Below, piece after piece: positions 1-21,633 of a stretch of 21,633 bases of DNA. The position numbers and the translations under genes are program-made. The notes beneath the pieces were generated by a model. That model made no database searches, had not been told where the DNA came from, and saw only the letters and a list, made by a program, of their open reading frames with translations. The DNA comes from a virus, in IMG/VR virus record IMGVR_UViG_3300006950_000008, positions 1 through 21,633 of that record; one strand, 5' to 3'. Every line of letters begins with the position of its first letter. Within the stretch, counting starts at the first letter, position 1.

Positions 1-1
1 A

Positions 2-2694: not shown

Positions 2695-2698
2695 TCGG

Positions 2699-4147: not shown

Positions 4148-5028
4148 ATGAACGAACCACGAAACAGATAAAAACAGAATTGTTTTGCGACAATTTCCAA
4201 AACTATAAAAGATACGGCATACCGAAAGCGCAACTGGTTATCGCCGATATTCCTTATAATTTGGGCAAAAATGCTTACGGTTCGAGCACGGAATGGTATA
4301 TCGACGGCGATAACAAAAAAGGCGAAAGCAAAAAGGCTGGTAAAGGATTTTTCAACACGGACTATGCTTTCAACATCGTCGAATACTTCCACTTTTGCAG
4401 CAACCTGCTGATCAAGGAACCGAAAGAAGCAGGCAAAGCCCCGGCAATGATCGTGTTTTGTTCTTTCGAGCAAATGAACCTCGTGATCGAGTGCGGCAAA
4501 AAATATGGATTCCCAAAAAGTTACCCGCTGTTTTTCATCAAGAACACTTCAGCACAAGTGCTAAAGGCAAACATGCGGATTGTGGGCGCGACTGAACACG
4601 CAGTAGTTTTATACCGCGACAAGTTACCGAAGTTCAACAATAACGGCAAGATGATTTTGAATTGGCAAACATGGGAAAAAGACAACCGAGCCGCATATCC
4701 CAAGGTGCATCCTACCCAGAAGCCTGTCAACGTGCTGAAACGCCTCATAACTGCATTCACGGACCCCGGTGATGTAGTTATTGACCCCGTGGCTGGCAGC
4801 GGAACAACGCTAAGGGCTTGTATGGAATTGGGTCGCAGCAGTTACGGGTTCGAAGTGTCAAAGATATTTTACCGGTTGGCGAAACTGAAAATGCTGTCGA
4901 ACGTAAACATTCAAACAGAATTGATGCAGGAAGAAAGATTTATTGCGTCGGTATTCGGGCAGAACTTATTCGAGGATTCGGTAACGTGTGAAGGGGAGCA
5001 GCCGAAGCAGGGCGGAGCGGGGGCTTGA
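4144..5028 (+). CDS. Beta-class DNA methyltransferase (N6-adenine or N4-cytosine)
   Basis: The 294-residue product has the beta-class motif order. Motif IV lies near the N-terminus (VIADIPYNLG, residues 32-41), a variable target-recognition middle follows, and then HPTQKPVNVLKRLI (189-202) and the SAM-binding motif I VIDPVAGSGTT (212-222). Such enzymes use SAM to methylate exocyclic amino groups of A or C. The catalytic tetrapeptide reads DIPY rather than the common DPPY/NPPY/SPPY, a conservative variant. No restriction partner is visible, so it is likely a solitary phage methyltransferase that protects phage DNA. It starts on an ATGA overlap with the HTH gene. Confidence 0.88.
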   Translation: MNERTTKQIKTELFCDNFQNYKRYGIPKAQLVIADIPYNLGKNAYGSSTEWYIDGDNKKGESKKAGKGFFNTDYAFNIVEYFHFCSNLLIKEPKEAGKAPAMIVFCSFEQMNLVIECGKKYGFPKSYPLFFIKNTSAQVLKANMRIVGATEHAVVLYRDKLPKFNNNGKMILNWQTWEKDNRAAYPKVHPTQKPVNVLKRLITAFTDPGDVVIDPVAGSGTTLRACMELGRSSYGFEVSKIFYRLAKLKMLSNVNIQTELMQEERFIASVFGQNLFEDSVTCEGEQPKQGGAGA

Positions 5029-5054
5029 CAAGGTATTATTACTTGTGGTATTGT
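5025..5054 (+). promoter_or_regulatory. Candidate sigma-70-type promoter
   Basis: A perfect -35 box TTGACA (5025-5030) is followed after 18 bp by TATTGT (5049-5054; four of six consensus bases). The gene at 5076 follows with a strong AAGGAGGGG site at 5062-5070. This is one of the few real gaps in the early block, which fits separate transcription of the replication genes. The -35 box overlaps the stop of the upstream methyltransferase. Confidence 0.5.
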
Positions 5055-5075
5055 TATGTATAAGGAGGGGATAAA

Positions 5076-5237
5076 ATGGACGTAAAATATGAACTCGAAA
5101 AAACGGCAAAAAGCAAGGTTCAAATCGCGGTAGAAGTTGGGGTAACTCCTCAAACTATCCGATACTGGGAACTGGGGTTGACTGAGCCGACAGAAGAAAA
5201 CCTCGAAAAGTTGAAGGTTTGCTTAGGGGTTGATTAA
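5076..5237 (+). CDS. Very short HTH (XRE-like) regulator, 53 aa
   Basis: The product is almost only a helix-turn-helix: KSKVQIAVEVGVTPQTIRYW followed by ELGLTEPTEENLEKLK, typical of the XRE/Cro family recognition helix and its trailing helix. It is preceded by AAGGAGGGG and a candidate promoter, and its TAA directly abuts the ATG of the replication protein (TAAATG). As the first gene after the promoter it may regulate the replication operon or help recognise the phage origin; this is inference. Confidence 0.75.
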   Translation: MDVKYELEKTAKSKVQIAVEVGVTPQTIRYWELGLTEPTEENLEKLKVCLGVD

Positions 5238-5918
5238 ATGCAATGGTTTCGAATGTATGGAGAATTTGCAAGTGACCCCAAGGTTCAGTCAATGGAAGAA
5301 ACGTTTCAAAGACGTTACATCATGTTACTGTGTTTGAAATGCAACGAAGAATTGCCGGGACTTTCGGATGAAGAAATTGGCTGTTCGTTGCGAATAAGTG
5401 AAGACGAGACAAAACGGACGAAAGAAAAACTCGTAGGCAAGGGGTTGATACTTGACAACTGGGACCCTACGAAATGGGACAAAAGACAATTTGTTAGTGA
5501 CCTTTCAACGGGTAGAGTCCAAAAATTCCGTAATAAGAACGTTCCAGATACAGAAACAGATACAGATACAGAGGAGAAACCGTTACAGAAACAAAAAGGA
5601 AACGTTACTGAAACGTTTCAAGACACTTCTGCGCTCGAAACAACTATTTTAGACTTCAAGATAATGCGGAACAAGATTAAGAAACCATTGACACCAAGAG
5701 CAGAAAAAATGCTGCGAAACACTCTTGATAAGTTGGGAAATACAGATGAAGAAAAGATAGCGCTTTTGGAACAAAGTATTCTGCATTGTTGGCAAGATGT
5801 TTACGCATTGAAAGAACAAGCAGCAAAACCAGTTAAGACAATGACAAAGGCGCAGCTTGACGCAATGACCGATGATGAGTATTTTGCCTATACGCAGGCC
5901 TGTAAGGGGGCGAATTGA
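5238..5918 (+). CDS. Phage replication protein with winged-helix-like N-terminus
   Basis: The 226-residue product opens with WFRMYGEFASDPKVQSM and RRYIMLLCLKCNEELPG, then DEEIGCSLRISEDE and LVGKGLI. This pattern occurs in phage replication initiator/replisome organiser proteins whose N-terminal domain resembles a winged helix. The middle (about residues 95-130) is a polar linker with a TETDTDTEE run. The C-terminal part (about 135-205) is helical, with SILHCWQDVYALKE, and could bind the helicase. It sits directly upstream of the primase/helicase gene and overlaps its first codons, which supports a role in replication initiation or helicase loading. Confidence 0.75.
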   Translation: MQWFRMYGEFASDPKVQSMEETFQRRYIMLLCLKCNEELPGLSDEEIGCSLRISEDETKRTKEKLVGKGLILDNWDPTKWDKRQFVSDLSTGRVQKFRNKNVPDTETDTDTEEKPLQKQKGNVTETFQDTSALETTILDFKIMRNKIKKPLTPRAEKMLRNTLDKLGNTDEEKIALLEQSILHCWQDVYALKEQAAKPVKTMTKAQLDAMTDDEYFAYTQACKGAN

Positions 5919-7689
5919 AATAAACGTAAGAGATTTTGCCGAATCTTACATGAAGCCGTATAAAGAACACGGTGATGAACTCGTTGCTATGTACTGCCCA
6001 TTCTGCGGAGGTGGCAGGGACAGGAAGGACAAGTGGAAGTTTTACCTCAATAAGTCCAAAAAGACTTTTATTTGCCAGAGAGCAACCTGCGGGAAGAAAG
6101 GCCACTTCACGGAACTATGCAAGGAGTTTGGGCAGGTAGCAGATCGGGATGAAGAATGGAACGAACCTATTCGTCGGGTATATGTCAAGCCGTTACCGGA
6201 AAAGCTGCCACAATATACCGCGTTGGAGAAAGTCGAAGATTATCTAAGAAAGCGCGGATTCTCTAAGGCAACATGGGAGCGCAGGAAGGTTGGCGAATGT
6301 GACGGGGCAATAGCCATGCCTTACTACGAAAACGGCGAAGTTGTGTTGGTAAAATATCGGCCGGCGTATAAGGCTACGGACTATAAAACAAAGTCATGGA
6401 TGAGTGTTGGCGGGAAGCCCGTTCTATGGGGCATGGAATTATGTGACACGAAATATCCTCTCGTAATTACCGAAGGAGAAATGGACGCATTGGCATTGGA
6501 TGAATGCGGAGTAATGAATGTTTTATCCGTTCCTGTCGGGTGCGATAATCTTCTATGGATTGAAAACTGCTGGGACTTTTTGAAGCAATACGAGAAGATC
6601 ATTTTTTGGGGAGACAACGATATACCTGGGGAAAAGATGATTCACGAATGTCAGATAAGGTTATCGGATTGGAAACTTCGGCAGGTAAAGAGCCAATACA
6701 AAGACGCGAATGCTGCCATGTACGCCCTGCAAAACAATCAGGAAATAGCCTTGATGGTAGAAATGGCCCCGGCAATGCCGATAGCCGGGTTGATTGATTT
6801 GGCAGATTTGGATTCAGATGTTGATGAAAATTCGGGGATTGTCCGGGTAAAATCGGGGATGGGTAAACTTGATTCGGGGATTGGTGGATTTGCACTTGGA
6901 GAAATAACCATCTGGACCGGAGATCCCGGCGAAGGGAAATCAACCTTTGTTGGGCAAGTATTGCTGAACTCGCTAAAATTTAGGCAAAGGGTATGCGCTT
7001 ATTCGGGGGAACTTCGGGCGAAGCAGTTTAGGCATTGGCTATATTTGCAGGCTGCCGGGCCGGACAATGTGATTCAATACGAAGATAAAGAAACCGGGTA
7101 TGTCAGTTATCACGTTGTGCCAGAGGTGGCCGAAAAAATAAGGAGCTGGCACAGGGGAAGTTTGTTCCTGTACGATAACCGCAACGATCAAGCAGTAAGG
7201 GAAAATCAAATCCTGCCAATGTTTCAGAAGGCCGCGAATCAATACGGGTGTAATGTGTTTCTGATAGACAACATGATGACGGCTCAATTTGACTACGGCA
7301 GGGACAGGGATTATTACCAAGCGCAGGGAGACTTCTTCCGGTCCATATCGGCATTCGCGCAGGCGCATAATGTTCATGTTCACGTGGTAGCTCATCCACG
7401 CAAGACACAAGGTAAGGCTATGGGCGGGGATGATGTTGCAGGGACAAAGGTATTGTTTAACTTGACACAGAATCTTATTCAGGTGGCGAGGGGAGACAAG
7501 GAGAACGCAGCTAAAATAACCGTGATGAAGAACAGAGAAACCGGAATAAAAAATGTGAATTTTGATTATTTGTTTCTTCCTTCATGCAAGAGATTTTATG
7601 ATTCATCGGCCCCTATCCGTTTTGGGTGGGAAGATATGCCAAAACCGTCAATAATGGATAGTTTTAGTAGTGAAGAAAGTATATTTTAG
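5872..7689 (+). CDS. Bifunctional primase/helicase (T7 gp4-like)
   Basis: The 605-residue product has, in order, a zinc-binding motif CPFCGGGRD with a second pair C68/C73 (residues 42-73), a TOPRIM primase core VITEGEMDALAL and IFWGDND (198-250), and a RecA-type helicase. The helicase shows Walker A TGDPGEGKST (349-358), Walker B NVFLIDNM (461-468), VVAHPRK and GGDDVAGT. It should make primers and unwind DNA at the phage fork. The start is uncertain: ATG 5872 gives a 47-bp overlap with the upstream gene and lacks a ribosome binding site. AAGGGGG at about 5904-5910 sits only 3-4 bases before an in-frame ATT (5914) that would begin directly at IEINVRDFAESY. Confidence 0.92.
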   Translation: MMSILPIRRPVRGRIEINVRDFAESYMKPYKEHGDELVAMYCPFCGGGRDRKDKWKFYLNKSKKTFICQRATCGKKGHFTELCKEFGQVADRDEEWNEPIRRVYVKPLPEKLPQYTALEKVEDYLRKRGFSKATWERRKVGECDGAIAMPYYENGEVVLVKYRPAYKATDYKTKSWMSVGGKPVLWGMELCDTKYPLVITEGEMDALALDECGVMNVLSVPVGCDNLLWIENCWDFLKQYEKIIFWGDNDIPGEKMIHECQIRLSDWKLRQVKSQYKDANAAMYALQNNQEIALMVEMAPAMPIAGLIDLADLDSDVDENSGIVRVKSGMGKLDSGIGGFALGEITIWTGDPGEGKSTFVGQVLLNSLKFRQRVCAYSGELRAKQFRHWLYLQAAGPDNVIQYEDKETGYVSYHVVPEVAEKIRSWHRGSLFLYDNRNDQAVRENQILPMFQKAANQYGCNVFLIDNMMTAQFDYGRDRDYYQAQGDFFRSISAFAQAHNVHVHVVAHPRKTQGKAMGGDDVAGTKVLFNLTQNLIQVARGDKENAAKITVMKNRETGIKNVNFDYLFLPSCKRFYDSSAPIRFGWEDMPKPSIMDSFSSEESIF

Positions 7690-7698
7690 GAGGGGAAT

Positions 7699-8229
7699 AT
7701 GATTCATGCCATTGATACCATATTCGACGGCAGGAAGTTCCGTAGCCGATTGGAGGCCAGATATGCCGTCCTATTCAAAGAACTCGGATTAGAGTACCAA
7801 TACGAAGCAGAGGGACACGCTCTAAGTGGGGAAATGTATCTGCCTGACTTTAAATTACTTCAGATACCTTTGTGGGTTGAAGTTAAGGGGCAGATACCGT
7901 CAGAAAGAGAGCGGGCCATTATGCGGGTGCTATCGATTGAAACAGGTGTCAGAAGTACTATTGTTGGACCGTTGGAAAGCCTCTTTAACAGAGATGAGTT
8001 ATTGCATCAAGCGGTTTTCCCCGAAGGCATGTCTGACAGTCCTTATTATTTCTGTGAGTGTGAATGGTGCGGTAAGATTGGATTCCATTGGGACGGTTAC
8101 GGGAGCAGAATAACGTGTTGTGCAAGAAACGAAAAAAGCGGAGATTATGTAAGCAATAAGTCTATCCGACTTATACAGGCGCACGAAAAAGCAATGCAGG
8201 CAAGATTTGAACATGGGGAGAAAGGCTGA
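7699..8229 (+). CDS. PD-(D/E)XK-type nuclease with C-terminal Cys cluster
   Basis: In the 176-residue product, RSRLEARYA (Glu19), LPDFKL (Asp50) and WVEVKG (Glu61-x-Lys63) form the E...D...ExK signature of the PD-(D/E)XK nuclease fold. The start KFRSRLEARYAVLF is typical of phage endonuclease VII/VSR-like predicted nucleases. The C-terminal half adds CECEWCGK and CCAR, probably a zinc site. A perfect AGGAGGGG site precedes the ATG. It follows the primase/helicase, which suggests DNA processing during replication or recombination. Confidence 0.8.
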   Translation: MIHAIDTIFDGRKFRSRLEARYAVLFKELGLEYQYEAEGHALSGEMYLPDFKLLQIPLWVEVKGQIPSERERAIMRVLSIETGVRSTIVGPLESLFNRDELLHQAVFPEGMSDSPYYFCECEWCGKIGFHWDGYGSRITCCARNEKSGDYVSNKSIRLIQAHEKAMQARFEHGEKG

Positions 8230-8588
8230 TGAAACTTACCGACGCACTCCCGCCCGACGGACAAGCCTTCGTCACGGAATTTCTGCGCTCTCTGTCGCTC
8301 ACGGACTCGAAACTCCGCGACTGTGGTAAAAAGGTTGACGTTGCGCGGTTTATGGCCGAGTACCGCGCCGAGAACGGGACCATCGAATCAACGCGGGGCA
8401 TGCCTGAGAGCGAGAAGAAAAAGAGGAAGCAGCGAAAACTTGATGCGCGATGGTACTTGGTAGCGCACAGCGGGGAGCCGCTCGCAACGGTAGCGGCGGG
8501 GCTGGGGATAGGGATGCAGACGGTGGGGAAGTGGTACAGGGATTTTGGGATTAAGCGAACTAATTGGGTGGGGAGGGTGAGACAATGA
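8229..8588 (+). CDS. HTH-containing protein, 119 aa
   Basis: The N-terminal half is unrecognised. A highly charged segment ESEKKKRKQRKLDARW separates it from a C-terminal helix-turn-helix: PLATVAAGLGIGMQTVGKWYR then DFGIKR. The start overlaps the nuclease stop by one base (TGATG) and the stop overlaps the next ATG as ATGA. The HTH resembles that of the protein at 3890-4147. A role as a phage transcription regulator is possible but not shown. Confidence 0.68.
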   Translation: MKLTDALPPDGQAFVTEFLRSLSLTDSKLRDCGKKVDVARFMAEYRAENGTIESTRGMPESEKKKRKQRKLDARWYLVAHSGEPLATVAAGLGIGMQTVGKWYRDFGIKRTNWVGRVRQ

Positions 8589-8836
8589 CGTGGCGCGACA
8601 AATCAAACACCGTGATACAGAAAGCGTTGATTGATTTTTCCGATGAAACTGACGCCGATAAGTTGTTTCAGAAAATTAGCCGTGAGAGGTATCCCTTCGG
8701 CCCACGAGAACAATTTCCATATAAAGCGTGGTTGAGTGCTATTGCGAAGAACAAAGAATTATATCTCAGCCGAACGCAGCAACCAAAACCGCAAGAAGTT
8801 ATTGATTATAAAGTTGGATTATTTGAGGAGGTGTGA
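8585..8836 (+). CDS. Unrecognised phage protein, 83 aa
   Basis: The product has a mid-region RERYPFGPREQFPYKAWLSAI followed by a polar tail (in two parts: RERYPFGPREQ, FPYKAWLSAI). The YPFGPRxxFPYKxWL pattern is one I associate with small phage proteins found next to DNA-modifying or replication genes, but no function is known to me. It is coupled to the preceding gene by an ATGA overlap. Confidence 0.65.
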   Translation: MTWRDKSNTVIQKALIDFSDETDADKLFQKISRERYPFGPREQFPYKAWLSAIAKNKELYLSRTQQPKPQEVIDYKVGLFEEV

Positions 8837-8837
8837 T

Positions 8838-9125
8838 ATGGATAAAATAACGGTAGCCGAAGCGATTGAGTTTTTAAACTGGCACAACTATAATTGTTCG
8901 ACCTGCCACAAAATAGCGGTGTTGGTTGAGCGCCAATCTAAAGAGATTGGCACGCTCCGTTGTTGCGGTACTTGCGAGCGATATGAGGTTGAATTTGAGG
9001 GATGCGGGAAGAAACAAATATTAGTTTACCGTCAACAAACTTGTGAAGAATGGGAAGAAATGATTATTACTAATGACAACGGTGCAAGAATTGGGGAATG
9101 CAAAAATCGGGAGGCGAAGAAATGA
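8838..9125 (+). CDS. Cys-rich small protein, 95 aa
   Basis: The start ATG follows GAGGAGGTGTGAT. The product contains two Cys clusters, CSTCH and CCGTCERYE, then GCGKK and a final TCEEWEEM, which suggests a zinc-binding protein. The same C..C / GCG / CxxWE layout appears in the product at 10206-10451, so the two may be distant paralogues. The stop overlaps the next ATG as ATGA. Function unknown. Confidence 0.65.
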   Translation: MDKITVAEAIEFLNWHNYNCSTCHKIAVLVERQSKEIGTLRCCGTCERYEVEFEGCGKKQILVYRQQTCEEWEEMIITNDNGARIGECKNREAKK

Positions 9126-9343
9126 CATTAGTTGAATTGCAAAAAGTGCTTGGGGACCGAATCGAAGTAGCGCTGGACGATACTCTAACAGAAGATGCAC
9201 GTGCGATTGAGGTGGAAAGGTCCGAGATAATCGCTCGCATGGCGAAACAAATGATTAATAACGCAGACATTGTTTTGAGAACCGACAAGTTACGATCGGA
9301 AGGTAAGCTGGTAGATAGCGCGATAGGGAAGATTGTGGGGTAA
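9122..9343 (+). CDS. Small helical acidic protein, 73 aa
   Basis: The product is predicted from its residue pattern to be mainly helical: TLVELQKVLGDRIEVAL at the start, then a long charged helix around ERSEIIARMAKQMINNADIV. No family was recognised. It starts on an ATGA overlap with the Cys-rich gene, after GGGAGGCGAAGAA. The following HNH endonuclease begins five bases after its stop. Confidence 0.65.
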   Translation: MTLVELQKVLGDRIEVALDDTLTEDARAIEVERSEIIARMAKQMINNADIVLRTDKLRSEGKLVDSAIGKIVG

Positions 9344-9347
9344 AACT

Positions 9348-9971
9348 GTGGGTAAGTATAACGCTTACACGGAAGAACAGGAGTTATTTTTACATAATAG
9401 CTCCTTCGGGTTAACTCGCCAAGAATTAACTAATAAGTTTAATGCCAAATTTGACACGAACAAGAGTCTGTTAGCTATCAAATCTTGGTGCAATAATAGA
9501 AAATTTATGTCAGGGCTTGATGGCAGATTTGACGGAACAAATCCATCATGGCAAAAAGGGTTGAAAGGGGACGAGTATAAATCACATTACTCCGAAAGTA
9601 GTCTTATAAAAGCGCAATCCGGAATAAGCAATAGACGGAAACATGAAATAGGTGGTGAGATTACACGTAGTGGAAGACCATATATTATAAAAAGCGTGGA
9701 TAAAAACACTGATCTTGATAGGAGAATAGTTTCGAAAAGGAGGTACGTATATGAGAACCTTTTTGGTAAAATCCCTAAAGGCCATAAAATAATCAATTTA
9801 GATGGAAATGCTTTTAATTGTTGCCCTGCGAATCTCTGTTGTATCCCCGCAAAATATATTCCAATCTTAAATAAAAATGGGTGGCTCACAGAAAGCGCGG
9901 AGCACACTTTAACCGCAATAAAATGGTGCGAATTGTTTTATGCGAGGAAAGATAAAAAAGGGAGAGGTTGA
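9348..9971 (+). CDS. Freestanding HNH homing-type endonuclease
   Basis: The 207-residue product has an N-terminal DNA-binding segment found in phage HNH nucleases (YTEEQELFLHNSSFGLTRQE followed by LTNKFNAKF and LAIKSWCNNRKF). The HNH core lies near residues 127-165: YVYENLFGKIPKGHKIINLD, then GNAFNCCPANL. GTG at 9348 is chosen because a GGGG site lies seven bases upstream; a TTG at 9333 would overlap the previous gene. Its base use is visibly more AT-rich than that of its neighbours, which fits arrival by horizontal transfer as a selfish gene. No intron or intein is apparent around it. Confidence 0.82.
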   Translation: MGKYNAYTEEQELFLHNSSFGLTRQELTNKFNAKFDTNKSLLAIKSWCNNRKFMSGLDGRFDGTNPSWQKGLKGDEYKSHYSESSLIKAQSGISNRRKHEIGGEITRSGRPYIIKSVDKNTDLDRRIVSKRRYVYENLFGKIPKGHKIINLDGNAFNCCPANLCCIPAKYIPILNKNGWLTESAEHTLTAIKWCELFYARKDKKGRG

Positions 9972-9972
9972 A

Positions 9973-10209
9973 ATGAACGTGCAAGAATTGAGGAAACAGT
10001 TCGAATCTGACATGGAAGAATATGGCGCGGTAAACCCTGATACGATGCGCGAAACGCTCGATAGACTTGAAGCAAGCGAGAAGGTATGTGAATCGGCGCA
10101 GGCGTTAAGCAGACTATATGACGGTGACTTGGACACGAACAAGCCGCTTTTGTATGAAACATGGGCAGCGGTCGATAACGCATTAATTGCGTGGCAAGGC
10201 ATCCGATGA
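9973..10209 (+). CDS. Unrecognised small phage protein, 78 aa
   Basis: The ATG follows GGAGAGGTTGAA. The product is helical and acidic, with VQELRKQFESDMEEYGAVNP and ETLDRLEASEKVCESAQAL, then a C-terminal WAAVDNALIAWQGIR. No family was recognised. It is linked by ATGA to the next gene and appears to belong to the run of small accessory genes downstream of the inserted HNH gene. Confidence 0.65.
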   Translation: MNVQELRKQFESDMEEYGAVNPDTMRETLDRLEASEKVCESAQALSRLYDGDLDTNKPLLYETWAAVDNALIAWQGIR

Positions 10210-10451
10210 ACGCCCGTGAAGCAATCCAAGCGCTACAACAATTTGATCGACTTGACGATGATCAAGTAAAGGAAATTGTGGAGTGTATTGAAGGTTTAAT
10301 ATGTTGCGGGAACTGCATCCAATTCAGTACTTATTGCGGCGAGGGGAAATGCTATGTTGATATTCCGGAAGGACCGGTATACCGTAGTGATGCAAGAGCG
10401 AAACCGGCTGATGGGTCTGAAAAATGCGACGAATGGGAGAGCGTGAAATGA
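10206..10451 (+). CDS. Cys-rich zinc-finger-like protein, 81 aa
   Basis: After a helical N-terminus (REAIQALQQFDRLDDDQVKE), six or seven Cys residues follow: CIEGLICCGNC, STYCGEGKC and KCDEWES. The CxxC / YCG..C / CxxW layout matches many small phage proteins assumed to bind zinc. It overlaps both neighbours as ATGA, and the Tad2-like gene comes directly after it. Function unknown. Confidence 0.68.
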   Translation: MNAREAIQALQQFDRLDDDQVKEIVECIEGLICCGNCIQFSTYCGEGKCYVDIPEGPVYRSDARAKPADGSEKCDEWESVK

Positions 10452-10741
10452 AATTTGAAGAAGTATTGCCGGCGCTGAGGGAAGGGAAAAAGATTCGGCG
10501 CAAGGAGATTAATGAAGCGTTCGACGCGAAAGACAGAGGGTTTTTAACCATTACTTCGTTCCTTTCAGAAGATTGGGAAGTCGTTCAAGAAACCGTAGAC
10601 TTCGCAACGGCGTGGCAAGCATACGAGAATGGGCGGCAGATTAAAAGCGAATTTTTCAGTGGTATTTACGAAAAATACCAATCAGACAGAGGTGACACAT
10701 TTACTTCAGATGAAATCCGCGGGAAGTGGATTATCCTATGA
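10448..10741 (+). CDS. Tad2/DUF2829-like protein (complete copy)
   Basis: The 97-residue product starts MKFEEVLPALREGKKIRRKE and reaches LSEDWEVVQE at about residue 44, the usual opening and closing blocks of the Tad2/DUF2829 family. The common RxxW tryptophan is missing. The second half (VDFATAWQAYENGRQIKSEF ... SDEIRGKWIIL) looks like a diverged repeat of the same unit. Studied Tad2 proteins bind the Thoeris second messenger and block that defence; this divergent member may or may not. A paralogue is cut off at the left edge of the window. Both ends overlap neighbours as ATGA. Confidence 0.7.
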   Translation: MKFEEVLPALREGKKIRRKEINEAFDAKDRGFLTITSFLSEDWEVVQETVDFATAWQAYENGRQIKSEFFSGIYEKYQSDRGDTFTSDEIRGKWIIL

Positions 10742-11130
10742 CCCCGCGCACGATAACCTTCTTCATCCCCGGCCGCCCTGCCACCAAGAAAACCGGCCAG
10801 CGAATCGTGACGGTTAGAACCTTCCAAAAGATTCTCCCGTCAAAAGCCTATTGCGATTACGAGGCATATTGTCTGCAATGGCTGGGATGGCAGATCAAGG
10901 AACGTTTTACGGGGAAGGTCCAGATATCCGCTGTCTACACAATGCCCGATCGCCGAAGCTGGCCCGACCTATGCGGGCTCTTCCAGGCGACGGGTGACAT
11001 ACTCGAAAAGGCGAAGATCATCGCCAACGATAGGGATATTGTTTCGTGGGATGGGTCGAGGATTGAGGACGAAACCAGCCGATTAGATGCCGGGGTGCGA
11101 ATCACGATAACCGAAGTAACACCGTTTTAG
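10738..11130 (+). CDS. RusA-like Holliday junction resolvase
   Basis: The 130-residue product begins TFFIPGRPATKKTGQRI, the RusA-type N-terminal block, and has the Asp-containing central block RRSWPDLCGLFQATGDILEK followed by IIANDRDI, where the family carries its catalytic Asp residues and a dimer helix. RusA enzymes cut Holliday junctions as dimers, which would resolve recombination intermediates made by the ERF system or clear junctions before packaging. It starts on an ATGA overlap with the Tad2-like gene. The window's ERF, HNH and RusA-like genes form a plausible recombination set. Confidence 0.86.
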   Translation: MTPRTITFFIPGRPATKKTGQRIVTVRTFQKILPSKAYCDYEAYCLQWLGWQIKERFTGKVQISAVYTMPDRRSWPDLCGLFQATGDILEKAKIIANDRDIVSWDGSRIEDETSRLDAGVRITITEVTPF

Positions 11131-11140
11131 GAGGTACACG

Positions 11141-11281
11141 ATGGACGCGACATTCGCACAAATCGAATTTATCAAATCCCTGTGCGCTCAGACCGGCTAC
11201 GACTCCGACGAATACAACTTCGCGACAATGACCAAAAGCGAAGCGTCGGAGATCATAACGGAAATGTTGAAGGAGGCGTGA
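11141..11281 (+). CDS. Small acidic protein, 46 aa
   Basis: An AGGAGGTACACG site directly precedes the ATG. The product reads as a compact helical peptide with FAQIEFIKSLCAQTGYDSDE and SEASEIITEML. Sequences of the form IKxLxxxTGxDxxxY..LTxxEAS are typical of small phage proteins with a helical recognition-like fold, but no role is known. It sits between the RusA-like gene and a zinc-finger-like gene, three bases from the next start. Confidence 0.65.
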   Translation: MDATFAQIEFIKSLCAQTGYDSDEYNFATMTKSEASEIITEMLKEA

Positions 11282-11283
11282 CC

Positions 11284-11616
11284 GTGGAAATAATTAGCAC
11301 CGATAAACGGAAGGCACAAAAAGAACACACTTGCGATTTTTGCAGATTGGAAATTGCGGTCGGGGAAATCTATCAAAACCAAACCAATGTCTACGACGGG
11401 TTGTATCATTGGAAATCTCACTTGTCATGCACCGAGATTGCACGAAAGCTGGAAATGTTCGATTATAGCACGTGCGATGAAGGGTTGACCGGGGAAGATT
11501 TTAGAGAAGGTGTGAGGAAATTTTTACAGAGCAACGAGATTGTTTATGCAAATTGGGCTGACGCGATGGCAAAGGCAAGAGAAACAGTGCTGAAGGAGGC
11601 ACACGATGGGCATTAG
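11284..11616 (+). CDS. Treble-clef-like zinc-finger protein, 110 aa
   Basis: A GTG start follows AAGGAGG at a seven-base spacing, which decides it over longer in-frame extensions. The product has HTCDFCRLEIAVGEIY, then YHWKSHLSC, i.e. CxxC plus a later His/Cys pair around a pair of conserved aromatic residues. This is a layout common in small phage proteins that probably bind zinc. The C-terminal half is helical (DFREGVRKFLQSNE). It overlaps the next gene by 11 bp. Function unknown. Confidence 0.72.
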   Translation: MEIISTDKRKAQKEHTCDFCRLEIAVGEIYQNQTNVYDGLYHWKSHLSCTEIARKLEMFDYSTCDEGLTGEDFREGVRKFLQSNEIVYANWADAMAKARETVLKEAHDGH

Positions 11617-11797
11617 AGAATACCTTGCCACAATCTACCGCAAGCCCCAGCCGGACCCGCTCGCCCTCGCCAACGCCGAACTGCTTCGCGCCGCGCAGAA
11701 CGCGCTGAAACACGGCGCGTACAACTACAAGACGATTCAATACCACGAGTTGGCGGCGGCGGTTCGGAAGGTTGAATTGGCGAATGGTAAAAATTGA
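11606..11797 (+). CDS. Small phage protein, 63 aa
   Basis: AAGGAGGCACACG precedes the ATG, almost the same leader as that of the gene at 11141. The product is Ala-rich and helical: ALANAELLRAAQNALKHGAY then YHELAAAVRKVELA. It starts with IREYLATIYRKPQPDPLALA. Not recognised beyond its similarity in style to small phage proteins. Confidence 0.66.
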   Translation: MGIREYLATIYRKPQPDPLALANAELLRAAQNALKHGAYNYKTIQYHELAAAVRKVELANGKN

Positions 11798-11812
11798 AGG
11801 GGGAATGAGCAA

Positions 11813-12142
11813 TTGAAAGCATGGACAGTCATTGACCCCAGCGAAGAATCATCTATTGTCATATTCGCTGATACTCGGGGCAAAGCGAGAATGTTCGGAG
11901 CCGGTGAACTCGGTAGCTGTTATGAATTTATTGATTATGGTATTAAGCGTTCGCCTGAATTTGATAAATACGCTGAACAGGGTGAAGTGCCGTTGTCCGT
12001 GCTGATGGAGCATAATTGGTGGATTGAGTGCCGTGGTTGCGATTACAGGGTTTTTCTTGATGACCTCACGGAGGGACTTGCCGTAATGATTGACGGAGAG
12101 CCGTACTGCGCAAAATGCGCGGCGAAGAAGAAGGGAGAATGA
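11813..12142 (+). CDS. Zinc-finger-like phage protein, 109 aa
   Basis: The start is TTG at 11813, nine bases after AAGGGGG; no ATG fits. The product starts KAWTVIDPSEESSIVIFADT and RGKARMFGA, a layout seen in phage proteins that begin with a small mixed beta region. It then has a likely zinc site from ECRGC and CAKCAAKKK at the C-terminus. It lies downstream of the RusA-like operon and is followed after 22 bases by another small gene. Function unknown. Confidence 0.68.
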   Translation: MKAWTVIDPSEESSIVIFADTRGKARMFGAGELGSCYEFIDYGIKRSPEFDKYAEQGEVPLSVLMEHNWWIECRGCDYRVFLDDLTEGLAVMIDGEPYCAKCAAKKKGE

Positions 12143-14683: not shown

Positions 14684-15007
14684 ATGGCGGCAATGCGGAT
14701 ACCAGAATCCTCGATTCAAACATTTTTGGAACGATGGAACGCAGGGGATACAATAGCACATATTTGCGCGATTACGGGACATGACACGGAAACATTTAGG
14801 CGCTGGCGGGTTGTATCCGATAACGCGATTAGCATGCGCGATAATCAACTGATACGCATCCGGGCGCGGGCGATACAAGGGGGAGGGCAACATGGCAAGC
14901 GACAAACTGACGGCAAAACAGCGGCTATTTGTCGCGGAGTACATCGTGGACCTCAACGGCACGCAGGCGGCTATTCGGGCGGGGTACAGCCCCAAGACAG
15001 CGAATGA
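14684..15007 (+). CDS. Small HTH-like ORF overlapping terS
   Basis: The ATG follows the strong purine-rich GGGGAGGGAGA. The first 65 residues look real and DNA-binding: SSIQTFLERWNAGDTIAHIC, AITGHDTETFRRWRVV. The last part (from about residue 70) runs 116 bp into the small terminase gene out of frame and is Gly/Gln-rich with no clear fold. The protein could be an auxiliary packaging factor that recognises DNA near terS, or a remnant of a longer small terminase; both are inference. A separate function cannot be assigned. Confidence 0.5.
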   Translation: MAAMRIPESSIQTFLERWNAGDTIAHICAITGHDTETFRRWRVVSDNAISMRDNQLIRIRARAIQGGGQHGKRQTDGKTAAICRGVHRGPQRHAGGYSGGVQPQDSE

Positions 15008-15485
15008 GCAGGCGTCTCGATTGTTAGCAGATGTTAATATCCAAACCGAGCTCACGGCGGCCATGGACAAGCGGGCTGCGCGCACTGACATAACGGCAGA
15101 CAACGTATTGCAGGAGCTCTGGTCAATCGCCAAGGATGACCTGAAAAACTATCTGGCGTTCCGGACGGAAAACACGGTGATTGGGCATGACGCCCTCGGG
15201 AACCCGCTTAGCGAATACCGCACAATCGCTGATATAAAGGACAGTTCGACGATCGACACTAAGAACATATCGGAAATATCAATCGGCAAGGATGGCCAGT
15301 TTAAGTTTAAACTCTACTGCCGTGACACTGCATTGGTACAGGTAGGCAAACATCTTGGCATGTTCGTGGACCGGTCGGAAGCGAACGTGAATTTGCAGGG
15401 TGAGATCACAGTCAAGGACCCGGCCGACGTAGAAAAGCGAATTTCTGAGCTTATGGCTCGTAAAATATCCAACCCTTCAAAATAA
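14892..15485 (+). CDS. terS: Terminase small subunit (Terminase_2 type)
   Basis: The 197-residue product opens with the family signature LTAKQRLFVAEYIVDLNGTQ, then AAIRAGYSPKTANEQASRLL, a DNA-binding helical domain. A middle region follows with DNVLQELWSIAKDDLKNYL, then DTALVQVGKHLGMF, and an oligomerisation-like C-terminus with EKRISELMA. Small terminases bind the packaging site and hand DNA to the large subunit, encoded directly downstream. GGGGGAGGGCAAC precedes the ATG at 14892, inside the previous ORF. Confidence 0.92.
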   Translation: MASDKLTAKQRLFVAEYIVDLNGTQAAIRAGYSPKTANEQASRLLADVNIQTELTAAMDKRAARTDITADNVLQELWSIAKDDLKNYLAFRTENTVIGHDALGNPLSEYRTIADIKDSSTIDTKNISEISIGKDGQFKFKLYCRDTALVQVGKHLGMFVDRSEANVNLQGEITVKDPADVEKRISELMARKISNPSK

Positions 15486-15573
15486 TGGTAAAACAAGAAT
15501 GTTGAATTATCAGGCTTGAATGCGGTTTACTAATCGGGCTGAGACTGAAAGATGTTTCCAATTGGAGAAAAAC

Positions 15574-16230
15574 ATGCTAACGGAGAAAGAAAACCTCGAG
15601 TTAATGAAGCTGTTGGAGTGGCAGTCATGGAGTCAAAACCCTTCGGCGTGGATAGATGATTGTTTGGTGACGAGGGACGAAGCCGACGAGGGCAAGATCA
15701 AGCCATTTCCGAAAAAGGATTATCTGTACCTGGTGGATCAGCGATTTGTGGAAGAACCAATCCTTGCTATACCAAAGAGCCGGCGCATGATTATCACGTG
15801 GAGACTGCTGGCATTACACTTGTGGCATGGAATATATAATTCTAACCAAGTCATATTCGTGCAAAGCAAAATAGGTGAGGATTCTGCATATCTGCTTGGT
15901 GAGGACCGCATGATGTTTCTGTATTCACATTTGCCGGCCGGCTATCCGTGGCCGAAATTGACGCGAAAGCTCAAAGACAATTCAGGCAAAGGGTATGAAA
16001 CAGTACAGTTCGACAACGGGACAAGTTATTATGCTGTGTCCGAGGGCGCAGACCAACTGAGACAGTACACGGCCAGCAGAGTATATTGCACAGAGATGGC
16101 CTTTTGGGAAAAAGCAGAGGCAACATGGAACGCACTACTCCCAACAATTCAAGGCGGGGGCAAGATTTGCATAGATAGCAGCGCAGAGCCCGGATTCTTT
16201 TTCCGGGAACTGCTGGGGATGTGTCAATAG
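15574..16230 (+). CDS. terL: Terminase large subunit, ATPase half (ends at in-frame TAG)
   Basis: This 218-residue part holds the packaging motor: VEEPILAIPKSRRMIITWR is the Walker A-like region (residues 59-77), RVYCTEMAFWEKAE the Walker B with its catalytic Glu (169-182), and CIDSSAEPGFFFREL the coupling motif (199-213). TAG at 16228-16230 then interrupts the frame, and the next codon is ATG in the same frame, with the nuclease half continuing at once. The ATG at 15574 has GGAGAAAAAC before it; an ATG at 15520 lacks a ribosome binding site. TAG also ends other genes here, so a general change of the code is unlikely. Confidence 0.85.
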   Translation: MLTEKENLELMKLLEWQSWSQNPSAWIDDCLVTRDEADEGKIKPFPKKDYLYLVDQRFVEEPILAIPKSRRMIITWRLLALHLWHGIYNSNQVIFVQSKIGEDSAYLLGEDRMMFLYSHLPAGYPWPKLTRKLKDNSGKGYETVQFDNGTSYYAVSEGADQLRQYTASRVYCTEMAFWEKAEATWNALLPTIQGGGKICIDSSAEPGFFFRELLGMCQ

Positions 16231-17034
16231 ATGGAGGGTATCACCGAGTTCAAACGTAACGGCATCCACGTGATGCGGATTCATTACACGGCAGACCCCG
16301 ATAAGCGCACGGCTGAATGGATGGCAGGAGCCAAGATAGGCATGACGTTGCAGGGATGGAAAAAGGAAATGGAGATAGACCCGACGATCAAGCTTGGTAA
16401 AGCCTGGTACCCTGAGTTCCGCTATGATTTCCACGTGGCCAAAGAGCCACTCACCCCGATATACGGCAGGCCCATGGTATCAGGCTGGGACTACGGGCTC
16501 ACGCCCGCCACGCTGTTCGGACAGACCACCGCCAAAGCGCAACTGTGCATCCTGTACCCGGAGCTTCAGTCCTTCGACCACGGGATACTAGCGCATGGCA
16601 GAGTCGTCAAAAGTGAGATGGCGACATACTTCCCCGGGTACACGTTCACGCACTTCGGGGATCCGGCGGGGAACCAAAGAGCGCAGACGGACGAGAAGAC
16701 CGCGAACCAGATACTTCGGGACGAGCACGGCATTACGGTACTACCCGGGCCAGTGTCGTTTGAGACACGCGACAACGCCATACGCAAGCTACTGACCATG
16801 ACCACGCCTGATGGCCAGCCCATGCTACTGATAGACCCACGCGATTCATGGCTGATTGGGGCATTTACAGGCGGATACCACCGTAAGGAAGTAGCAGGCA
16901 GATTCCTCGAAGACCCGGAGAAGAACGAGTACAGCCATATCATGGATTGTCTGGGCTACATTGCGTCGATGGTTTACACCGTGGTTGAGAGGCCCAAGCG
17001 TAACGGACCAGCACCGAAGAGAGGAGCGATTTAG
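16231..17034 (+). CDS. terL: Terminase large subunit, nuclease half (in frame after TAG)
   Basis: The 267-residue part starts MEGITEFKRNGIHVMRIHYT and ADPDKRTAEW, the usual linker between motor and nuclease, and has the RNase H-like nuclease Asp residues in SGWDYGLTP (Asp87), THFGDPAGN (Asp144) and YSHIMDCLGY (Asp239). It would cut the phage DNA at the ends of packaging. The ATG follows the TAG of the ATPase half directly (CAATAGATGG). It could be made by coupled restart, or the two halves could be joined by TAG readthrough or suppression. A disabling mutation is the third option. Confidence 0.85.
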   Translation: MEGITEFKRNGIHVMRIHYTADPDKRTAEWMAGAKIGMTLQGWKKEMEIDPTIKLGKAWYPEFRYDFHVAKEPLTPIYGRPMVSGWDYGLTPATLFGQTTAKAQLCILYPELQSFDHGILAHGRVVKSEMATYFPGYTFTHFGDPAGNQRAQTDEKTANQILRDEHGITVLPGPVSFETRDNAIRKLLTMTTPDGQPMLLIDPRDSWLIGAFTGGYHRKEVAGRFLEDPEKNEYSHIMDCLGYIASMVYTVVERPKRNGPAPKRGAI

Positions 17035-17172
17035 ATGATATATTTGGGAGAATTTTGGGTATGCCCTGATTGCGGAGAGACGCATCCCTACGCTATTTGT
17101 ACTAAGCCTGCATGCAAGTGTGGGTTTGTTGGCAATGCAATATCAAGAATGGACGAGGTAACGCATGAGTAG
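17035..17172 (+). CDS. Zinc-ribbon peptide, 45 aa
   Basis: Starts directly after the terminase stop (TAGATG) and overlaps the portal gene by 8 bp. The product is a compact Cys cluster: FWVCPDCGETHPYAIC and PACKCGF, which fits a small zinc ribbon. A tiny zinc-binding protein between terL and portal could be a packaging or head-assembly helper, but only its position suggests so. Confidence 0.6.
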   Translation: MIYLGEFWVCPDCGETHPYAICTKPACKCGFVGNAISRMDEVTHE

Positions 17173-19342
17173 TGCAACAGAGCGCCGCGACCGCATAGAG
17201 AAGCAGGTAATAGCCAAGCGGGACAAGGCACGCGACCACAAGTCTGCAAACATCGCGCCAAAGGATAAGGAGCGGCTGCAGCGCTTTCGTTCGTCTAAGG
17301 AGTATTACGAGGGCAAGCTTCCGAACCTGACGCAATACTCAATGAGCGACACGTCCGTAATGAGTGCTACTGAGCGCATGACGGCGCAAATAATGAAGAT
17401 GCTGTTTGGCAACGCTGACATCGGGAGCATGAAGGGACGGAACGCTGAGGACGACGCCAACGCCGATACGATGCAGCAGTTCTGCAACTGGCAGATAGAG
17501 TACCCAAACAAAGGCTATCAGAAGTTCTACTGGTGGATTAAAGAATGTCTGTACCAGTTGTACTCCGTGGTCATAGTCACGCAGAAGCGCGAATACACCG
17601 AAGTTGAAGAAGAGAAGATCGTGCCTGCCGGACAGGAAGAAGAGTTCATGCGGCAGACTAAAGAAAACAACGTCGAAATACTTGGGGCAACAGTCGAAAC
17701 TAACCCAGAGACGGGGGAACAGTTCGAACGAGTGCAAGTCAAGTATATGAAGCTGACCGCTAACTATCCTTTGATAGAGAACGTACCGACCGAGGAGTTA
17801 ATCTGGACTCCCGGCGCGAATACATTTGCAGAATGTGAACTTGTTGGGCGCCGGAAACAGGTCACGATTGATTCACTCGTTCGCAACATCCGCAAGAAGC
17901 AGAAAGACGGTACTTATACCGGAATGTATGATAAGGCGAAGGTCATGGAGATAGTGGAGAGCGGCGCATCTTCGTCAAACTCCGACAATTCCAACGACAA
18001 CATAGATTCGACACGGCAGGGATTCGCGGGCGACGACAGTTACGACCTCGAAGACCCGAACCGCAAGATATGGATAACGGAGAGCTACGTCAAAGCCGAC
18101 ATCAACGGAGATCATAAACTTGAAGACTGCATCATGACCGTGACCGACGAGGGCAACACGTTTATCAGGTACGAAGAGAACGAGGACGGCTTTCCGTTCT
18201 GCGTTATCTCGCCTGTGTTCGACCCGTTCCGCATCGTGCCTGACGTGTCAGGGATTGACGCTCTGGGACAGTGGCAGGATTTACTGACAGCGATTATTCG
18301 ATTGACGGTGCAGAACCTGGCGCTGAACAACAACCCGCAACTGATTGTTCAATCGGCGGCATTCGTAGACTTTAACCAAGTGCTGGACAGTGAGCAGTTC
18401 TTGGAAACCAATGGTATCGCAAGCGACGTAATGAAACCTGTCGCACAAATCCCGCTTGCTCCGTACACTCTGCAGTTGATTGAGATGATCAAGGGCTGGG
18501 GCGAAGAAGCCAGCAACATCAACCGCTACAACCAAGGCATGGATTCAAAGAGCCTTAACAAAACTGCAACTGGCATTACGGCGCTGATCAACCAAGGCGG
18601 GCAGGCCATGGAACTGATCATGCGCAACATTGCCGAAACCGGCATGAAAGACCTGTTCATGCGCATGGTTTTTCTCAATCAAAAGTACGTCGACCAAGAG
18701 CAGGTAGTCCGGCTGACGAACAAAGACCTGCAGGTCAACAAGGACAATCTCAAGGGCGACTTTGACTATGTTGTCAATGCCGGCATGGGCGCAGGGGCAA
18801 AAGAAACGGACATTGCCAATATCTCCGGCGTGATTCAAGAGATGCCGACGCTAATGCAGGCAGGGCTTGCAACGCTTAAGAACGCCTACAACGCCTACAA
18901 GAAGAAACTGGAACTAATCGGCATGCGCAACACCGACGATTATGTAACCGACCCCGAGGCAGCGCAACAGCAGCCACAGCCACAAGGGGCACAGGGACAG
19001 CCGCAGGCCCCCGAGAAGGACAATATAAGCGCCAACATCAAAGACGCTCCGGACGAAATCCAAGCGCAGTTCTGGGCTAAGCAGGGGTTCCAGTCAGACC
19101 CGTCGATGTTCGCAAAGCAGAAAGCCGAACAGATGGAACAATCCCGCGTCGACCAAGAGCAGAAAGCGTTATACGGCGCAGGCAAGGAAGTTATCGCAAA
19201 GCACTTAAGCCCCGAATCAATCACGTTAGGAGGCCCTTTGAATGGACAAGGTGGACCGAATGGCATTGGCCCCGCAAGTAATGGAAGTAATAAAGGATAT
19301 CCAACTGGAAATCAACAAGGACCTGCTCAAAATGTTGTCTGA
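17165..19342 (+). CDS. Portal protein (P22-like podovirus type)
   Basis: The 725-residue product has the length of P22-type portals. Recognisable parts are the Lys/Arg-rich start, YYEGKLPNL, FCNWQIEYPNKGYQKFYWWI, the core FCVISPVFDPFRIVPDVSGI (about residues 340-360) with LNNNPQLIV, and the long helical region around WGEEASNINRYNQG and ITALINQGGQAMELIMRNIA. The C-terminal 130 residues form the Gln/Pro/Gly-rich tail (QQQPQPQGAQGQPQ). Portals form the 12-mer ring through which the terminase pumps DNA. The gene overlaps the zinc-ribbon peptide before it and a small gene at its end. Confidence 0.9.
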   Translation: MSSATERRDRIEKQVIAKRDKARDHKSANIAPKDKERLQRFRSSKEYYEGKLPNLTQYSMSDTSVMSATERMTAQIMKMLFGNADIGSMKGRNAEDDANADTMQQFCNWQIEYPNKGYQKFYWWIKECLYQLYSVVIVTQKREYTEVEEEKIVPAGQEEEFMRQTKENNVEILGATVETNPETGEQFERVQVKYMKLTANYPLIENVPTEELIWTPGANTFAECELVGRRKQVTIDSLVRNIRKKQKDGTYTGMYDKAKVMEIVESGASSSNSDNSNDNIDSTRQGFAGDDSYDLEDPNRKIWITESYVKADINGDHKLEDCIMTVTDEGNTFIRYEENEDGFPFCVISPVFDPFRIVPDVSGIDALGQWQDLLTAIIRLTVQNLALNNNPQLIVQSAAFVDFNQVLDSEQFLETNGIASDVMKPVAQIPLAPYTLQLIEMIKGWGEEASNINRYNQGMDSKSLNKTATGITALINQGGQAMELIMRNIAETGMKDLFMRMVFLNQKYVDQEQVVRLTNKDLQVNKDNLKGDFDYVVNAGMGAGAKETDIANISGVIQEMPTLMQAGLATLKNAYNAYKKKLELIGMRNTDDYVTDPEAAQQQPQPQGAQGQPQAPEKDNISANIKDAPDEIQAQFWAKQGFQSDPSMFAKQKAEQMEQSRVDQEQKALYGAGKEVIAKHLSPESITLGGPLNGQGGPNGIGPASNGSNKGYPTGNQQGPAQNVV

Positions 19343-19767: not shown

Positions 19768-19839
19768 GTGGCGGTAATCAGCGGCATAAAAATAAAGAAG
19801 CAGGTGGCGGCTATACAGCCTGCGAAGGAGCAAACATGA
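19768..19839 (+). CDS. Possible tiny ORF between cold-shock and scaffold genes (weak)
   Basis: After the TAA of the cold-shock gene the same frame stays open for about 31 codons (PLEIVPLAVAVISGIK then KKQVAAIQPAKEQT) and ends in an ATGA overlap with the scaffold start. Possible starts are only GTG 19768 or rarer codons, with no clear ribosome binding site. The hydrophobic start and basic end resemble a short membrane or structural peptide. Weak support; it may also be non-coding. A GGCTatacAGCC hairpin (19809-19820) lies just before the scaffold ribosome binding site. Confidence 0.25.
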   Translation: MAVISGIKIKKQVAAIQPAKEQT

Positions 19840-20843
19840 AAACATTCGTAATGGATATTCAGAGATTCGCAGAGGACGAAGGACTCACCGTAGACCAAGC
19901 ACTTGACGCACTCAACGGCAAGGAGTCCGAAGCGAAGCCCGAAGCTGCGAAGACCAAAGAAACACCCGCGGTAGTGGAGGAAAAACCGGAGGAAGAGCCC
20001 GAAGCCGAAGAGGAAACGAAACCCGAGGCCCCTGCCGTAGACTTCACCGCCAAGATCAAGTTCCGGGCCAACGGCGTGGAGCAGGAGCAGTCACTCCAAG
20101 ACCTGATCAACGCGGCGCAGCTGGGCAGCAACTACAACCAAAAGATGCAGGAGCTCGCCACGCAGCGCAAGGCGTTTGAACTGGCACAGCCGAAGGAAGT
20201 CGACCCCGCGAAGGACTTCGAAGACCTCGATAGGATGATCACCGAACGCGCCATGAAGCGGCTGCATATTACGGACCCCGACGAGTTCAGCCCTGATGCG
20301 TCGATCAACAGAATCCATTTCGCGGCGTATCAGCAGGCCCTGAACGAGATCAATCAAGAGAAGCAGCAGTCGGACTATGTGGAACGCGAAGCGCAGCAGG
20401 TGGAGAATACCTTTGTCAGTAAGGTCAACACTTTGGCGGCTGAAGCGGACTTCAAAGAGGTAAACCAATTCGCGGAGAAGGAATTGTATAACCTCCCGGC
20501 GAAAGGCCCGGACGGGATTAAGGAGTTCAATCAACTCTACCCCGTGATGCAGAAACTGAAACTCCGTGACGCAATGTTCAACGCAGGGCAGGACTACAGA
20601 GTCGTAAGACTGACCACCGCCGAAGTCAACGCGATCACCGGATTTTACGAGACTCAGAAGACCGCGTATGTCTCGCAGAAGAACAAGCCCGCTCCGGTAG
20701 TGGTCCCGAAAGGCGCGGTCATCAAGCCGACAGTAAGAGTCGAATCAGGCACAAACGAAGGACCGGCCCCAGTTAAGAAGATCGACTTCAAGAAGGTCCG
20801 CGAGATGGACTTGGAAGAGGTCGCGAAACTATTAAACGGATAG
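19836..20843 (+). CDS. Capsid scaffolding protein
   Basis: The 335-residue product is very acidic after its start (many Glu/Pro/Ala repeats to about residue 68), has a long helical middle (LQDLINAAQLGSNYNQKMQE, NQEKQQSDYVEREAQQVENT), and ends in a basic helix (KKIDFKKVREMDLEEVAKLL). That layout, plus the place between portal and major capsid genes, fits an internal scaffold whose C-terminal helix binds capsid. Its first 12 residues, MKTFVMDIQRFA, nearly match those of the capsid protein. AAGGAGCAAAC is the ribosome binding site. No separate protease is seen beside it. Confidence 0.82.
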   Translation: MKTFVMDIQRFAEDEGLTVDQALDALNGKESEAKPEAAKTKETPAVVEEKPEEEPEAEEETKPEAPAVDFTAKIKFRANGVEQEQSLQDLINAAQLGSNYNQKMQELATQRKAFELAQPKEVDPAKDFEDLDRMITERAMKRLHITDPDEFSPDASINRIHFAAYQQALNEINQEKQQSDYVEREAQQVENTFVSKVNTLAAEADFKEVNQFAEKELYNLPAKGPDGIKEFNQLYPVMQKLKLRDAMFNAGQDYRVVRLTTAEVNAITGFYETQKTAYVSQKNKPAPVVVPKGAVIKPTVRVESGTNEGPAPVKKIDFKKVREMDLEEVAKLLNG

Positions 20844-20855
20844 GAGAGTGACAAA

Positions 20856-21633
20856 ATGAAAACTTTCATTATGGATATTCAGCGGTTCGCAAGAACAGGC
20901 GTAGAGAACATGTATGCCGCCGATAGTTCCGGCGTAAACCCCGAAGACTACCATCAGATCATACTTAACACCAGCCCGAAGTCCACCCCGTTACTGTCAG
21001 ACATCGGAGACGGCGACGATATCAAGAACATCGAGTACAGCTGGGCTGTTGAATCCCTCGCTGCTCCGGCAGTTAGCGAAATTGCCGAAGGTGCCACCGC
21101 TGCCGCTGCCGGCCATGCGCTGCCGACCCGGATACACAACTACACGCAGTTGATGGAAAAAGGCTATGCCATCACCACGACCGAGGAAGCTATCGCGAAG
21201 AAGAACGGCACAATGACCGACATCAACAAGAGGATGTTGGAAGCGGCCCTGAACATGAAGCGCGGCGCGAACAAGTCCATCCATGAGAATTCCACGATGG
21301 TCAAGCACTCGGAAGGTGTTGCCGGTAAAATGGGCGGCCTGCCGTATTGGTTCGTTACCGGAAATGCTCAGCTCGCCAACGCGAACGCTATCGCCTGCGG
21401 CTCTGTCGCACTCAGCGAAAAGCTGATTCTGCAAGGCATGCAACAGGTCTATGACATCCACGAGTTTGAAGTTCTCACCGGCTACTGCAATTCCAAGCAG
21501 AAGATGCGCTTTGACAACTTCTCAGGCGGCGCCGTGGTGAACAAGAACAAGAGCGAGAAGAAAGCCGGCAACATCATCGACGTGTACGAAACTTCCTGCG
21601 GAACTTTGCAGGTCAAGATCGACCGTCAAGCTG
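20856..21633 (+). CDS. Major capsid protein, HK97-fold (SU10/DUF5309-like), cut by window edge
   Basis: An AGGAGAGTGACAAA site precedes the ATG. The visible 259 residues start MKTFIMDIQRFARTGVENMY, then NPEDYHQIILNTSPKSTPLL, a pattern of HK97-fold capsid proteins whose first helix is followed by a TPLLS loop. The EYSWAVESLAAP, RIHNYTQLMEKGYAITTTEE and NMKRGANKSIHENSTM segments match the SU10-type family in order. Its N-terminal peptide is shared with the scaffold. The C-terminus lies outside the window, so total length is unknown. Confidence 0.88.
   Translation, partial: MKTFIMDIQRFARTGVENMYAADSSGVNPEDYHQIILNTSPKSTPLLSDIGDGDDIKNIEYSWAVESLAAPAVSEIAEGATAAAAGHALPTRIHNYTQLMEKGYAITTTEEAIAKKNGTMTDINKRMLEAALNMKRGANKSIHENSTMVKHSEGVAGKMGGLPYWFVTGNAQLANANAIACGSVALSEKLILQGMQQVYDIHEFEVLTGYCNSKQKMRFDNFSGGAVVNKNKSEKKAGNIIDVYETSCGTLQVKIDRQA

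Follow-up and report, generated by a model that had tools for sequence, protein, structure and literature searches.

The stretch analyzed here, hereafter the window, comprises 21,633 nt (IMG/VR virus record IMGVR_UViG_3300006950_000008), and the features of the terminase region described below lie on its plus strand. Between the gene for a terminase small subunit (14892..15485; Terminase_2, PF03592, E = 3e−36) and the gene for an SU10-type portal protein (17165..19342; PF23899, E = 5e−111), which is the position of a large terminase (TerL) gene, we found a pair of open reading frames (ORFs). The first, terL-A (15574..16230), encodes an ATPase-core polypeptide of 218 amino acids from the ATG at 15574, and the second, terL-B (16231..17034), encodes a lid and nuclease polypeptide of 267 amino acids that starts with ATG GAG GGT (MEGITEF). 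From position 16213 the sequence reads CTG GGG ATG TGT CAA TAG ATG GAG GGT ATC, which spans the interval 16216-16245 highlighted in a preliminary description of this DNA. That description had reported an in-frame TAG followed directly by ATG, and this arrangement is real: the TAG that ends terL-A (16228..16230) and the ATG of terL-B together occupy 16228-16233, with 0 nt between the flanking ORFs and the same frame on both sides. The same TAG is found in a second contig (L001; IMG/VR contig 3300025891_000006, 37,412 bp), which is 100% identical to the window over 7,512 bp across the TAG and also over window positions 1-12000. An isolated base-calling error is therefore unlikely, with the qualification that the two assemblies may share reads.

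Translation signals were evaluated for both ORFs. An upstream in-frame ATG at 15520 provides a longer option for terL-A (15520-16230, 236 codons); judged by the Shine-Dalgarno (SD)-like sequences, the ATG at 15574 would be the better start (GGAG, −6.4 kcal/mol versus −2.5 kcal/mol for 15520). The terL-B start is preceded by the SD-like sequence GGGGATG (16215..16221), whose duplex with the anti-SD sequence (−8.5 kcal/mol) is matched in strength at just 8% of the 433 plus-strand ATGs of the window. An SD-like sequence also precedes the nuclease start in most relatives with a split terminase (exceptions are L242, L137, L201, and L209). A second in-frame TAG-ATG boundary lies at 17032..17037, where the terL-B stop meets the start of the next small gene. 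This gene is a 45-amino-acid, cysteine-rich ORF (17035..17172; CPDCG..CTKPACKCG; CPDCGETHPYAICTKPACKCG) whose first codon directly adjoins the terL-B TAG; it has its own SD-like sequence (duplex −8.3 kcal/mol), and overlaps the portal gene start through an ATGA.

Searches of Pfam, PHROGs, and NCBIfam left both terL-A and terL-B without a match at the cutoffs applied (E = 0.001 for Pfam and PHROGs). Both keep the catalytic motifs of a large terminase, as the preliminary description had noticed. In terL-A, the Walker A-like KSRRMIIT (15775..15798) carries its lysine at the N-terminal end, and K68 and R70 are invariant in 14 homologues. The catalytic glutamate E174 (16093..16095), at the end of Walker B (...VYCTEMAFW), is invariant in two homologue alignments and aligns with the Glu of the T4 gp17 YIDECAF. 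The ATPase coupling motif III, SSAEP (16177..16191), has S202, S203, A204, and P206 invariant in 14 homologues and is aligned next to TTTPN of T4 gp17. A family profile matches T4 gp17 with E = 2e−14, and the fold match to the T4 gp17 ATPase domain described below likewise identifies terL-A as an ASCE ATPase core. In terL-B, the catalytic Asp D87 (16489..16491; GWDYGLTPA) and D144 (16660-16662) are invariant across 14 aligned sequences, at least 90% of which also have D239 (16945-16947), and the fold matches known TerL nucleases with Z scores of 12 to 21, as expected for an RNase H-like nuclease. Because some relatives of the window pair are fused, the homology of the split pair to TerL is beyond doubt. 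As an aside, the ATPase half resembles the terminases of T4-like and jumbo phages, and the nuclease half is similar to that of podovirus-type terminases (BcepC6B, Ss1, Rollin, Hodr), in which the ATPase carries a classical GPxGSGKS loop; the two resemblances suggest an old domain swap.

The location of the break within the protein was examined on predicted structures built from shallow alignments (27 and 14 rows). The model of the read-through pair has a mean pLDDT of 83, with junction residues 210-218 below 50. Its residues 7-271 match the ATPase domain of T4 gp17 (2O0H, Z = 24, RMSD 2.9, 240 aligned residues), and stand-alone nuclease structures match it from residue 272-276 onward, whereas the TAG corresponds to residue 219. 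When terL-B was modeled alone, matches to the nuclease domains of T4 (gp17 361-562, 3CPE, Z = 15, over terL-B residues 57-255), D6E, P22, and SPP1 began at about residue 55 (54-60) and reached residue 255; the first ~55 residues of this model have pLDDT values of 64-74, and most of the nuclease domain exceeds 90. The ATPase domain consists of ASCE and lid subdomains (PMC5727402). Given that the ATPase match runs to residue 271 and the TAG falls at 219, about 52 lid-region residues are carried by the second chain (16231..16392; model residues 220-271, within the T4 ATPase match); in fused terminases, the homologous residues form the end of the ATPase domain. The break had been described as falling exactly at the domain border, and this needs correction: in the predicted structure it lies some 52 residues before the ATPase domain ends, between the ATPase core and the lid. 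We propose that the ATPase subunit is probably completed by terL-B, which would make each motor subunit a heterodimer.

To place the window among its relatives, we gathered a large family from IMG/VR and from GTDB genomes, the IMG/VR scans using an alignment of each half. Every forward-strand ORF of these loci was compared with two HMMs, one for each half; a locus was called fused if both halves were in one ORF, and near copies were removed to leave 82 non-redundant rows. The terminase is split in 59 of these rows and fused in 23. Among the split rows, the two halves are near or overlapping genes in 22, are separated by a gap in 35 (up to about 2 kb), and occur in reversed order in 2. The closest relative, L251 (JAGGAD010000060, an unclassified Bacillota MAG), is 68% identical in the ATPase half and 66% identical overall. 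It has the breakpoint and restart Met context of the window, but its ORFs overlap out of frame, whereas those of the window abut in frame: the ATPase ORF ends at 5660, past the nuclease ATG at 5638 in another frame. Overlap junctions of the ATGA or TAATG type are found among L039, L206, L128, L131, L242, L137, L209, and L225. In L162, L189, L191, and L195, the gene order is swapped: both genes are on one strand, but the nuclease gene comes first, ~1.3-1.7 kb ahead of the ATPase gene. Since just 2 of the 22 near junctions are in frame (20 of 22 being out of frame), the in-frame abutment in the window is unremarkable and needs no special explanation. As judged from these loci, the two-gene terL state is not peculiar to the window phage but is shared by dozens of its relatives, most of them uncultured. 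The closest relatives are in Bacillota, and several belong to the same class as Megasphaera; this gives no more than a hint as to the host.

Two further features were noticed among the loci. A gene with an HExxH motif stands between the halves in the split loci L233 (2962-3465), L239 (3381-3974), L227 (3543-3968), and L038 (835-1164), and such loci are spread over two distant parts of the tree. Some terminase ORFs are over-long (L242, 1573-3615; L243, 3929-5971; L234, 3944-5485; L227, 1454-2971), with domain matches spread across about 490-660 residues; these could contain inteins or inserted domains.

The position of the break is strongly conserved across the family. By a simple motif count over the rows in which the motifs were found, the ATPase ORF ends a median of 18 residues (quartiles 16-23) past motif III (42 of 59 split rows), and the nuclease Met lies a median of 24 residues (18-29) ahead of a conserved HY motif (44 of 59). 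The corresponding distances in the window are 17 and 17; the window and its split relatives thus share a two-ORF TerL broken between motif III and the lid. The N terminus MEGITEF aligns with MQGITEY (exactly in L251, and also in L129 and L131), MQGVTEY (L128), and MQGITDF (L201). Aligning the junction with relatives, as the preliminary description had suggested, gave a divided answer: the start Met is conserved among the split relatives, but the in-frame stop arrangement is not.

The fused homologues inform the direction of change. The nearest of them include those in prophages of Megasphaera paucivorans and M. massiliensis (NZ_FNHQ01000001, NZ_HF954537), which are 54-57% identical to the window over both halves and encode TerL in a single ORF of 513-519 amino acids, in place of the two ORFs of the window. 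In a class-level genome search around Megasphaera, the ATPase-bearing frame was 513-519 amino acids long in two Megasphaera genomes and 215-293 amino acids long in most other matching genomes; one further genome (G318) has a fragmented copy. The fused Megasphaera-type homologues have about 12 more linker residues (for example, within NEDEPEEEQEPHDV), where the window has the stop and the start only. In a tree of 32 rows, the Megasphaera-type fused rows form one clade (support 100/100), and the five fused rows form, with the window and L251, a seven-row group (100/99) that is nested in a 20-row clade whose remaining 13 rows are all split. A constraint placing the 15 split rows in a clade apart from the five fused rows was rejected (AU test, P = 0.00165). 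In an ATPase-only tree with a fused T4-like outgroup, the earliest branch is a fused group; the rows that follow are mostly split, and the Megasphaera type is placed deep among them. On the concatenated tree of all 82 rows, the split and fused states require only 3 changes. The nesting of the fused clade within a split clade, together with the branching relative to the T4-like outgroup, is read as early fission and later re-fusion, and the Megasphaera fused homologues are probably derived; in the wider tree, supports are modest, the root is uncertain, several deep branches are weak, and L136, L173, L181, and L149 are long and uncertainly placed.

Considering these observations together, we favor, with a probability of about 0.86, the reading that terL-A and terL-B are two adjacent terminase genes, that the TAG is an ordinary gene boundary, and that the two chains associate, with terL-B completing the ATPase subunit. 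Under this reading, terL-A would end at the TAG and supply the ASCE ATPase core, N terminus to coupling motif III inclusive; ribosomes would start at the abutting ATG by reinitiation and/or by means of the GGGG SD-like sequence and make terL-B; and terL-B would supply the lid part of the ATPase domain and the RNase H-like nuclease. The two products would then associate, with terL-B completing every ATPase subunit in the ring that sits at the portal. The split itself would be inherited from an old split lineage rather than be a fresh nonsense mutation. The existence of two stable proteins, their hetero-assembly, the mode of restart, and the stoichiometry are inferred. A two-polypeptide terminase made by restart was one of the two possibilities raised in the preliminary description, and it is supported by the comparison: the split in relatives occurs at an equivalent site, often with the halves out of frame, the Met is conserved, and an SD-like sequence is usual. 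For the family as a whole, we lean toward a broader proposal, that a large, mostly uncultured clade of tailed phages uses obligate heterodimer motors of early origin, that separation and reversal of the genes have been tolerated, and that the genes re-fused in Megasphaera phages.

The other possibility raised earlier was programmed readthrough of the TAG, which would yield a small amount of fused TerL beside the short ATPase and serve as a switch in the timing of packaging. Some fusion is possible at the window junction, where the second ORF follows the stop in the same frame and without a gap, and fused homologues exist. However, stop readthrough is unable to join halves that are out of frame, overlapping, or swapped, as they are in L251, at most near junctions, and in relatives with reversed gene order. 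The fused homologues are also longer by the ~12 linker residues that are absent from the window, the Met used for restart is conserved, and the next gene boundary (17032-17037) is likewise an in-frame TAG-ATG. A suppressor tRNA had been proposed as something to look for, and a tRNA search found none in either the window or the flanking parts of the 37.4 kb contig. We consider readthrough unlikely.

Less probable still is that a fused gene was broken by a recent nonsense mutation, leaving a defective phage, or only seems broken through an error of sequencing or assembly. It would be in line with a closest fully fused clade, the Megasphaera prophages, at 54-57% identity, but the second contig is identical, both ORFs keep the conserved motifs, and the absence of the 12-residue linker requires more than a single base change. 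The split state of L251 refutes this reading, provided that L251 is not an error as well. A sense codon at this place in all close relatives, which the preliminary description had named as evidence against its proposal, is not what the family contains: the closest relative, L251, is split, and the next-closest clade is fused.

About equally improbable is a mobile intron or homing endonuclease that splits terL and is spliced out to restore one protein, as happens in the Jug huge phages, whose terL is also in more than one ORF and is spliced back from group I introns (PMC12363816). HNH-like ORFs, judged by eye, lie between the halves in L201, L241, and L248, and single separated relatives could still fit this explanation. 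The window, however, unlike the Jug phages, has no insert of any kind, which refutes the explanation there, and the overlapping out-of-frame junctions and swapped gene order in relatives also argue against it. No intron family was matched by Rfam in the window, and no intron was found at gathering thresholds in 17 loci with separated halves, which yielded one tRNA, in L233 only. L233 belongs with L002 to a group (IMG/VR 3300035698) that has homologous ATPase and lid-nuclease genes with the breakpoint of the window, but whose halves stand ~2.2 kb apart, with a tRNA and further genes in the interval; its ATPase is 26-28% identical to that of the window.

Finally, TAG-recoded phages are known, but decoding of the TAG as an amino acid, by recoding or a suppressor tRNA, into one fused terminase is largely refuted and the least credible explanation, since TAG terminates 7 of the 27 genes checked, readthrough would merge distinct neighbors (for example, 5872-7689 with 7699-8229, or 19836-20843 with the gene that follows it), and no tRNA was found in the window and contig flanks as searched; the earlier judgments that other genes here end in TAG and that full recoding is unlikely both hold.

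Two adjacent terminase genes depart from the known systems with which we compared them. The two-domain fold is common to the window pair and the T4 gp17-type terminase (Terminase_6N plus an RNase H-like nuclease), at about 10-16% identity, but gp17 is one polypeptide, whereas the window encodes two, cut between the ATPase core and the lid. In a tblastn search of 50,697 phage records, no match to terL-A or terL-B reached 60% identity, and the ATPase matches listed were at about 22-31%. The matched records that were examined (Rollin, Hodr, Pmp11, Ss1, HSTV-2, GAP32, RM378, RAS14, Mel-JY01, and MW202803) each have a single TerL ORF of ~475-590 amino acids; Vibrio phage PVA7 was left out of the comparison because its annotation is fragmented throughout. 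Searches with the small terminase and portal proteins gave no further loci of the window TerL beyond the identical contig. Published overviews describe one TerL polypeptide with ATPase and nuclease domains (PMC7824862, PMC8589836). In the open-access literature we found accounts of intron-split terL only, and no clade described as encoding TerL in two genes without an intron; this is weak evidence of absence.

The occurrence of a split TerL extends far beyond the window phage, and the function that we infer for the two chains would bear on how the motor is understood. Reviews regard the nuclease domain as belonging to every large terminase, and DNA translocation is modeled on the basis of how core, lid, and nuclease are coupled within a single chain. 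A natural clade with a separate lid-nuclease protein offers a direct test of the extent to which the motor needs covalent coupling, and also of whether the nuclease can be supplied in different numbers. TerL is, in addition, a standard marker gene for phages, and because both halves of the window TerL go unmatched in Pfam, PHROGs, and NCBIfam at the cutoffs applied, phages of this kind may escape detection or be taken to have a broken terminase.

One further observation concerns the region downstream of the portal gene. Two neighboring genes near the capsid region encode nearly the same N-terminal peptide, MKTFVMDIQRFAEDEG (19836-19880) versus MKTFIMDIQRFARTGV (20856-20895). We take these N termini to resemble the LQLFA-type N termini common to some Firmicutes phage head proteins.
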